DNA of 22,540 nt from a virus. Position numbers and translations under genes: made by a program. This document shows positions 14,974-16,549 of the stretch, piece by piece. The notes under the pieces are model-generated. The model did no database searches. It saw only the letters and a program-made list of their open reading frames with translations, and was not told where the DNA came from. The DNA lies in the IMG/VR virus record IMGVR_UViG_3300034101_003906, positions 1-22,540 of that record. The stretch is one strand, 5' to 3'. How positions within the stretch are numbered: position 1 is the first letter of the stretch; each line of letters opens with the position of its first letter.

Positions 14974-15237
14974 ATGAACACACGAAAGACTGACGGGGAG
15001 AAGTCTCAGCCCGCAGGCATTGCCCTGCCCCGCGACTTAATCGAGGTCGGACGGGAATACGCCAAGCGGCACGGGTATGGTGGCCTTAGTGGCCTTACGC
15101 GCCATTTGCTGACCACCTACTTGGCAAAGGCCGCACAAGCTGCGGAGGACGCGAGCCAAGCAACCAAGGCCGAAGGCAAGAAGAAGGTAACAAGCGCCCG
15201 CCGCAAACTCGGTAGCGCCCGAAAGAATGAGCAATGA
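14974..15237 (+). CDS. Ribbon-helix-helix DNA-binding protein (87 aa), divergent switch partner
   Basis: An 87-residue protein with an RHH core at about 12-52: SQPAGIALPRDLIEVGREYA then KRHGYGGLSGLTRHLLTTYL, with strand AGIALP, helix A DLIEVGREYAKRHG and helix B from LSGL. The N-terminus is short and polar (MNTRKTDGEK) and the C-terminus is a long Ala/Lys tail (ATKAEGKKKVTSARRKLGSA) that may add nonspecific DNA contacts. The core resembles the divergent 56-aa protein. It lies directly upstream of the integrase on the same strand, which favours a lysogeny-maintaining repressor, an integrase regulator or an excisionase-like factor. The ATGAACACA start context echoes the GAACACAGAAC starts elsewhere. 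Confidence 0.75.
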   Translation: MNTRKTDGEKSQPAGIALPRDLIEVGREYAKRHGYGGLSGLTRHLLTTYLAKAAQAAEDASQATKAEGKKKVTSARRKLGSARKNEQ

Positions 15238-15251
15238 TTTTTTCATGTCGT

Positions 15252-15270
15252 GGGGTATTCATATTGAGCG
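15252..15270 (+). repeat. 19-bp direct repeat, left copy (upstream of integrase)
   Basis: GGGGTATTCATATTGAGCG. It recurs with one mismatch at 16501-16519, beyond the attP core. The two copies bracket the integrase-attP cassette at 1249-base spacing. They may be recombination boundary sequences or binding sites for integrase or an accessory factor. Confidence 0.6.
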
Positions 15271-15291: not shown

Positions 15292-15306
15292 CCCCCCCCC
15301 CCCCCC
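15292..15306 (+). repeat. Run of 15 C residues before integrase
   Basis: Fifteen consecutive C lie 18-32 bases upstream of the integrase ATG. An in-frame TAA at 15318-15320 shows the tract is not translated as part of the integrase. Such tracts change length by slippage and could alter promoter spacing or leader folding. They are also prone to assembly error. Confidence 0.7.
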
Positions 15307-15323
15307 GCAAGCAACAATAACAA

Positions 15324-16385
15324 ATGAATAGCGAAATCGTCCGGGTTGGCGGGTTCACCTGTCGCCTGTGGCGCGGATCGGACGGGCGTTGGAAATGGCA
15401 CGCGCGCCGGGGCGGCAAACGGGTCATGTGCGCTGCCAAGGAATTGACTAAGGCCAAGGCGCGAGCAAAGGAACAACTTGCCCTCCTGCGAGACGGGCGC
15501 AGCCAGTTAGGCAACCTCGACCCCGCCCTGCTCTCCGAGTTCCTTGCGTGGAAAGGCCAGCGCACGGATAGCCCCCCGACCGCCGAGGCTGCACGTAATT
15601 ACGTGCGTCACCTCATCGAGCGAAAGGTTCAGACCCGCACCATCGAGGGCGACCTTGCTCACTTTACCGCCAAGCACCCCGGCCCGATTGCCGATGTGAC
15701 CGCCGCGCAAGTCAAGCTGCACCTTGACTCACTGGGGGTCGGGCCTCGCCGCTACAACAACGTGCGGGCCACGCTGGTCAGTTTCTTCGTATGGGCGCGC
15801 AAGCAGTCCTATCTCCCCGATTCCATGACCGCCCCGCAGCGGACTCACGCCCTGCCCGTCCCGAAAAAGCGCCCTCCGATTTACACGCCTTCCGAATTTC
15901 GTGCCTTGCTCGCCGCCGTTGCCCCGGAATGGCGTTTGCCGCTGGCGATTTGTGGTCTGGCGGGGCTACGCACTTGCGAGACGGAAAAGCTGCTGTGGCG
16001 CGAAGTAAAACTCGGCAAAAAGTTGATCGAGGTTCTGCCCGACAACGCGAAGAACACGGGCCGCAGGCGGCTTGTTCCGATTCATCCCGCTCTGATGACT
16101 TGGTTTCGCAAAGCAAAAGACTTTGCCCCGGACGATCATGTTTGCCCGCAGGATGTGCGGATCGACAACTTGGCAAAGCGCGTGAGGCGCAAGGGGGTCA
16201 AGTGGGTCAAAAACGGGCTGCGGCATGGTTACGGCTCCTACCGCTGCGCGGTCGTGAAATCCGCCGCACAGGTCGCCTTGGAGATGGGCAACTCCGAGAA
16301 CACAGTGCGCTCAAATTACCTCGATTATGTCGAAAGACCCGCCGCGACAAAGTGGTTTCAATGTGGTTACTTTTCGCCCCCTTAA
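15324..16385 (+). CDS. int: Tyrosine recombinase / phage integrase
   Basis: A 353-residue site-specific recombinase that would join attP to the host tRNA-Leu gene. The N-terminus (6-45) resembles an arm-binding domain, the SAM-like core-binding domain spans about 60-165, and the catalytic domain about 185-340. Catalytic residues: R216 (GLRTCE), K243 (NAKNTGRRRL), R300 and H301 (NGLRHGYGSY), and nucleophile Y332 (SNYLDYV). The usual first His of HxxR is Asn297, and the His/Trp before the nucleophile is Asn323; both resemble a variant I associate with PVC-bacterial integrases. An in-frame TAA just upstream supports the ATG at 15324, though no Shine-Dalgarno is seen. The 3' end of the gene contains the left attP arm repeats, and a strong terminator follows 3 bases later. 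Confidence 0.93.
   Translation: MNSEIVRVGGFTCRLWRGSDGRWKWHARRGGKRVMCAAKELTKAKARAKEQLALLRDGRSQLGNLDPALLSEFLAWKGQRTDSPPTAEAARNYVRHLIERKVQTRTIEGDLAHFTAKHPGPIADVTAAQVKLHLDSLGVGPRRYNNVRATLVSFFVWARKQSYLPDSMTAPQRTHALPVPKKRPPIYTPSEFRALLAAVAPEWRLPLAICGLAGLRTCETEKLLWREVKLGKKLIEVLPDNAKNTGRRRLVPIHPALMTWFRKAKDFAPDDHVCPQDVRIDNLAKRVRRKGVKWVKNGLRHGYGSYRCAVVKSAAQVALEMGNSENTVRSNYLDYVERPAATKWFQCGYFSPP
16352..16373 (+). repeat. Left attP arm-type repeats (two 11-bp units)
   Basis: GTGGTTTCAAT and GTGGTTACTTT lie in tandem, in phase by 11 bases, within the last codons of int. The second unit is identical to the first unit of the right arm (16528-16538). They lie 47 bases from the tRNA-derived core, as do the right-arm units on the other side. 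They are probably sites for the N-terminal domain of integrase. Confidence 0.6.
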
Positions 16386-16388
16386 AAA

Positions 16389-16417
16389 CTTAACCCCCTC
16401 AAAATGAGGGGGTTAAG
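16389..16417. terminator. Intrinsic terminator after integrase
   Basis: A perfect 12-bp stem (CTTAACCCCCTC with GAGGGGGTTAAG) around the loop AAAAT, starting 3 bases after the integrase stop. It lacks a long T-run but is very stable and symmetrical, so it could act in both directions. It sits between the left arm repeats and the attP core. Confidence 0.75.
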
Positions 16418-16420
16418 ATA

Positions 16421-16481
16421 TGCCGACGGAGGGGGTCGAACCCACACTCCCTTGCGGGAAACGGATTTTGAGTCCGTCGCG
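16421..16481 (-). other. attP: attP core: 3' fragment of tRNA-Leu(CAA)
   Basis: On the minus strand the sequence reads as the 3' part of a tRNA: anticodon stem ACGGA/TCCGT (16473-16477 and 16461-16465) with loop CTCAAAA and anticodon CAA (16470-16468), a long class II variable arm TTCCCGCAAGGGAGT, T-loop TTCGACC and the acceptor strand CGTCGGC plus discriminator A (16421). The D-arm and 5' acceptor strand are absent, so it is not a functional tRNA. Temperate phages carry such fragments to rebuild the host gene after insertion. The T-stem has a U-U mismatch. Confidence 0.85.
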
Positions 16482-16500
16482 GACAGAGGAAAGCAGTTAA

Positions 16501-16519
16501 GGGGTTTTCATATTGAGCG
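16501..16519 (+). repeat. 19-bp direct repeat, right copy (beyond attP core)
   Basis: GGGGTTTTCATATTGAGCG, 18 of 19 bases identical to the copy at 15252-15270. It lies between the tRNA-derived core and the right arm repeats. Confidence 0.6.
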
Positions 16520-16527
16520 AAAGCAAG

Positions 16528-16549
16528 GTGGTTACTTTCTGGTTACTAT
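16528..16549 (+). repeat. Right attP arm-type repeats (two 11-bp units)
   Basis: GTGGTTACTTT and CTGGTTACTAT in tandem, 11-base phase, same orientation as the left pair. Distance to the core is 46 bases, nearly equal to the left side. Confidence 0.6.

Follow-up and report, generated by a model that had tools for sequence, protein, structure and literature searches.

A probable tRNA-Leu(CAA) attachment site with paired 11-bp arm units in uncultured phages of Verrucomicrobia

Comparison of uncultured viral contigs with bacterial tRNA genes indicated that an uncultured phage family very probably (probability about 0.9) uses the attP described here as its attachment site for a tRNA-Leu gene of Verrucomicrobia. 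The stretch studied (hereafter named the window) comprises positions 1–22,540 of the IMG/VR contig IMGVR_UViG_3300034101_003906, with the focus on positions 15,324–16,549, and its genes include a terminase, an ERF recombinase, an endolysin, and a tyrosine integrase (int). The close relatives of this integrase are uncultured viral contigs without exception; a first scan yielded 15 of them and a profile scan about 35 with ≥45% identity. The nearest isolated phages by integrase are Akkermansia and Thermus phages with 26–31% identity. A four-unit attP is retained across relatives whose integrases share 45–94% identity. The type of site is already known, but about 30 relatives reveal with unusual clarity what stays constant in it, what shifts by one helical turn, and what flips as a block.

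Four 11-bp arm units claimed in a preliminary description of this DNA, two on each side of a tRNA core, were all located at the coordinates listed in Table 1, and the inner unit GTGGTTACTTT is identical on both arms. The sequence TGGTTNCNNT was counted 8 times against 2.1 expected, pairs of TGGTT at 11-bp spacing were found twice in the window where 0.03 would be expected, and none of 500 dinucleotide-preserving shuffles placed two pairs of this kind within 250 bp. The arrangement as paired 11-bp direct repeats is also kept in the relatives, in which the inner units were present on both sides in all 33 loci compared, with the outer units lying 11 bp farther out and being more variable. Arm-type sites flanking the core, as found here, are a feature of heterobivalent (lambda-type) integrases.

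Table 1. Features of the int–attP region, numbered by position in the window
Feature	Position	Strand	Remarks
int, tyrosine integrase, 353 aa	15324–16385	+	N-terminal domain (about 1–63) of predicted arm-binding type; catalytic positions R216, K243, N297, R300, N323, Y332
Outer left arm unit GTGGTTTCAAT	16352–16362	+	Within the int frame, codons Trp344, Phe345, Gln
Inner left arm unit GTGGTTACTTT	16363–16373	+	Encodes the int tail ...CGYF; relatives keep the unit 26, 36 or 47 nt from the core
Predicted intrinsic terminator	16389–16417		Perfect 13-bp palindrome, 3-nt loop, then TTTTT on the minus strand; -22 kcal/mol; window clade only
attP identity block, 61 nt of tRNA-Leu(CAA)	16421–16481	-	Discriminator base through anticodon stem; one mismatch at 16426
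Core part common to all tRNA-Leu relatives, TGCCGRCGGAGGGGGTCGAA	16421–16440	-	Acceptor 3' strand, T-stem 3' strand, T-loop; presumed strand-exchange region
Inner right arm unit GTGGTTACTTT	16528–16538	+	85–88 nt from the 20-nt core in every relative
Outer right arm unit CTGGTTACTAT	16539–16549	+	Outer units on both sides in relatives

The core had been read as the 3' part of a tRNA-Leu(CAA), and the 61 bases indeed matched complete genes in Verrucomicrobia MAGs with one mismatch. ARAGORN identified a tRNA-Leu(CAA) in 16 of the 16 bacterial contigs (MAGs) matching the core pattern, of which 14 are labelled as Verrucomicrobia or its subgroups, one as "bacterium" (WB5_1B_140), and one as Candidatus Paceibacterota (L041). 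In addition, searching the 20-mer core in 147 genomes gave 13 matches, every one of them in a tRNA-Leu(CAA). The tRNA-Leu(CAA) of the contig labelled Candidatus Paceibacterota (L041 7899–7982) agrees, together with its flanks, almost base for base with the subdivision 6 contig L040, and L041 may be mis-binned or mislabelled. Hand-folding of the tRNA-Leu(CAA) displayed a T-T mismatch in the T-stem (positions 50–64) in all listed verrucomicrobial copies, for example L031 1764–1847.

The identity between attP and tRNA covers 61 bases in the window clade and the last 20 only (TGCCGGCGGAGGGGGTCGAA) in the L012 clade (one mismatch in L012), L101, L102, L104, and L107; contigs L007 and L009 break within the core. 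In at least 19 tRNA-Leu relatives, nothing beyond these 20 nt of the tRNA 3' end is retained. Because such relatives keep these last 20 bases alone and the distance beyond them is unchanged, we infer that strand exchange occurs in the acceptor/T-arm end rather than in the anticodon region. The preliminary description had further proposed a symmetrical site with arms equally distant from the core. The equal distance held when measured to the 61-base block (gaps of 47 and 46) and failed when measured to the conserved core at 16421–16440 (47 and 87), and the symmetry was abandoned, since the conserved core comprises the terminal 20 or so nt of the tRNA and the arms are unequally distant from it; the site looks symmetrical only because the identity block is so long in the window clade. 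It is very unlikely that the 61-base core is functional throughout, with the crossover in the anticodon loop of a symmetrical site, as might be read from the 61 bases and near-equal gaps of the window clade, given that the relatives with only 20 nt still place the right arm 85–88 bp from there.

For the 20-nt core with unequal arms, no relative departed from a spacing of 85–88 bp to the inner right unit, and this also held for L015, L016, and L108 when read in the direction of the tRNA. The spacing from the core to the inner left unit was 47 in 11 loci, 36 in 18 loci, and 26 in 4 loci, with no other value among the 33 loci; the values lie 10 and 11 bp apart, consistent with one turn of the helix per step. 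A left gap of 26 was found in L104/L107 and L015/L108, and one of 36 was shared by the L012 clade, L101/L102, and L016; gap class and clade do not correspond strictly, and the deep branches of the tree lack resolution. As the 33 loci correspond to about six independent lineages rather than to 33 independent cases, the variation of the left gap by whole helical turns is suggestive, short of proof. A literature search on arm–core helical spacing in attP found nothing specific.

Three relatives revealed how the arms and core move together. In L015, L016, and L108, the whole attP (arms and core) is inverted relative to int, and the direction and spacing of the arms relative to the tRNA are unchanged. 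Two of the three, L015 and L108, carry a tRNA-Pro core that corresponds to the 3' end of tRNA-Pro(CGG) of Verrucomicrobia; the tRNA-Pro pattern had no match in the order of G025 and was later matched at the phylum level. The core of L016 resembles the 3' end of a tRNA-Ser, for which no match was found among 62 genomes. In L009 (1–1600), compared with the window, the segment from the regulator to int has been turned around with respect to attP and the early genes, and the left arm and core have stayed where they were; the integrase, which ends in WFQKK, no longer has the tail encoded by the arm. On these comparisons, the arms plus the core behave as one block. Related phages that lacked the arms or integrated elsewhere had been named in the preliminary description as evidence that would speak against the attP, and L009 and L015/L108 correspond to them in part. 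Neither overturns it, since L009 has no arm at the int end yet keeps one where its attP now sits, and L015/L108 combine the tRNA-Pro core with the same arms.

The left arm was also said to overlap the end of int and to constrain the integrase C-terminus, and the direction of this effect proved right, as the tail reads WFQCGYF in the window and WFDSGSI in L107, whose arm is changed. The residues following Trp-Phe follow the arm DNA, and the tail beyond Trp-Phe seems free to do so; as the left arm doubles as the last int codons, the arm DNA would dictate the integrase tail. The int stop codon of L015 and L108 lies within an arm unit. Of the four units, the outer left one is the least certain, and its TGGTT is weaker evidence alone, because the same letters encode the invariant Trp344-Phe345; it is also the most degenerate. 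This degeneracy would agree with a rival reading, in which the left pair is merely coding (TGGTTT = Trp-Phe), the likeness of the outer left unit is coincidental, and the true attP has at most three arm units, or two right and one left. Trp344-Phe345 is moreover invariant even where no arm is present (L009, L015, L016, and L108), and Trp-Phe also occurs in the distant relative L061, which ends in EWFAIMPPKLT. We nevertheless regard a coding-only left pair as rather unlikely, considering that the inverted attPs have an outer unit on each side without the Trp-Phe coding constraint, that the outer left unit of L107 matches the arm sequence of its own lineage, TGGTTCGAT, and that L009 retains GGTTCCAAT beside the inner unit although int moved away.

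Further evidence on the four arm units came from one lineage in which they change together, from TTACTTT to TTCGAT, with clustered changes in the integrase N-domain. L107 carries TGGTTCGAT in all four units (TGGTTCG), and L104 carries TGGTTCG in three of the four and TGGTTCAAT in the fourth. Six of the first 60 integrase residues of L104/L107 are unlike all other aligned rows, and five of these fall at 27–29 and 36–37 in the predicted strands 3 and 4. In comparison, L015/L108 have diverged to the same degree and carry arms of the common TGGTTAC type, and they show no such position in the N-domain and 41 outside it; L101/L102, whose outer units are aberrant, have four N-domain positions unlike the other rows. 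The covariation, based on one lineage, fits a reading of the arms by the N-domain.

The integrase matched the PHROG_1 integrase with an E value of 1.6e-26, and the Pfam Phage_integrase domain was recognized in 16 of 16 aligned members (best E 1.8e-7), with the window protein itself falling short of the Pfam cut-off. In an alignment of 20 rows, R216, R300, and Y332 are invariant and K243 nearly so, and two catalytic His/Trp positions are occupied by Asn (N297 and N323) in all 20 rows, as well as in the distant verrucomicrobial relative L061. The AlphaFold model displayed strands 3–8, 11–17, 23–29, and 32–38 and a helix 41–63 in the N-domain, with pLDDT mostly 84–92, and its best PDB match was the full-length lambda integrase (structures 1z1b and 5j0n were matched); the catalytic/C-terminal part is poorly predicted, with pLDDT <50 from about residue 300 on. 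By its modelled fold, int is a probable heterobivalent (lambda-type) integrase with a predicted arm-binding N-domain.

The leader of int contains a run of 15 C at 15292–15306, located 17 nt before the start codon. A C run of 8–20 was present at the same place in 25 of the 30 relatives with the leader in the contig, and in two more it was truncated where the contig stops; elsewhere in 299 kb of the same loci, C/G runs of at least 8 were found just twice. Even where the flanks are nearly identical, loci vary in the length of the run, and 14 of 35 contigs terminate no farther than about 100 bp from it. The run could constitute a slippage-prone, phase-variable int leader. L093 and L108 are >90% identical in the int leader and first codons, and the rest of their integrases is far more diverged, which suggests that the leader plus N-domain was exchanged between phages. 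No gene for an excisionase was identified; an 87-aa gene upstream of int (14974–15237) is a candidate regulator, and a sigma-70 promoter scan found none. An exact 13-base direct repeat, TTCATATTGAGCG, lies upstream of int (15258–15270) and in the right attP spacer (16507–16519); it was considered as an extra attP site and rejected, being present only in the window, L002, and L004, with its count reached in 8 of 100 shuffles.

The preliminary description had proposed searching bacterial genomes for the core in a tRNA-Leu(CAA) beside a related prophage. The core was found in complete genes, and no prophage with this integrase was found in the 275 genomes (213 + 62) of two host orders, among which no integrase exceeded about 43% identity; a peptide-pattern scan of genome contigs for the integrase likewise gave none. 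The intact attP pattern had no match in bacterial genomes either, a search that is uninformative because a lysogen would carry attL and attR instead. Since no lysogen was found, we infer recombination from the arms, core, spacing, and conservation, which together support the attP reading of the preliminary description. The lysogen result, and the fact that the window contains no complete tRNA gene, would also be compatible with a remnant or captured piece of a host tRNA beside repeats, constituting no working attP. That is extremely improbable, because a remnant would neither keep its spacing nor covary, and the architecture is held across strongly diverged integrases and a different tRNA, with arm units that change in concert.

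As a working attP, the site can be compared with known systems. Phage lambda has a tyrosine integrase whose N-domain binds arm sites, as predicted for the window; its arms are likewise unequal, with the P' arm near the int end. Its arm sites differ in number and spacing from those of the window, and its target is no tRNA. Paired 11-bp arm sites and arm/N-domain covariation were described for the cluster K1 mycobacteriophages CrimD, Anaya, Adephagia, and Angelica (PMC3203893). As in the window, two 11-bp arm-site pairs flank a core common to a host tRNA-like gene, a stem-loop terminator lies between core and arm, and the arm consensus varies with N-domain residues (PMC3203893). The pairs of cluster K1 are mutually inverted around a tmRNA core in an attP located 5' of int (PMC3203893), whereas the window has four direct units, a tRNA-Leu(CAA) core, and one pair inside the int 3' end. 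The attP of mycobacteriophages Omega and Gaia involves tRNA-Leu-CAA, the same isoacceptor as in the window; the 44-bp core of Omega rebuilds the tRNA, and the attP of Omega/Gaia can be inverted relative to the remaining genome (PMC10865867). These phages differ from the window in hosts and integrase family, and the window carries no phage tRNA. Paired direct arm sites, as in the window, are also known from the attP of L5 and Giles, with additional arm sites in L5, and the integrases and targets of both differ from those of the window (PMC3203893).

These results suggested a likely mechanism. The N-terminal integrase domain would bind the four 11-bp arm units, two per side and all in the same direction, with the long arm gap (about 87 bp) being rigid and the short gap tolerating one helical turn more or less (26, 36, or 47 bp). 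Such a tolerance would fit a folded complex that requires the arm to stay on one face of the DNA. On integration, the 5' part of the host tRNA and the 61-base 3' part from the phage would join on the int side to form an intact tRNA gene, in whose acceptor stem the changed base would make a G5-U68 wobble pair. The phage-supplied terminator would then follow shortly after the tRNA 3' end; its 13-bp hairpin could end the tRNA transcript and, from the opposite side, that of int.

The attP core would link this group of uncultured phages with hosts among the Verrucomicrobia and name the exact gene of insertion. The natural variants, namely the one-turn spacing, the block inversion, the switch to tRNA-Pro, and the concerted arm change, make the geometric needs of a lambda-type integrase complex testable without new sampling, as well as the question of which N-domain residues read the arm. 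Tentatively, at slightly less than even odds, the attP of this family may be a portable, orientation-independent block, whose short gap evolves solely in whole helical turns and whose long gap is frozen, with the arms and N-domain inherited apart from the core and catalytic domain. If this is true, the portable block would provide a readable rule set for how an integrase changes its target tRNA.
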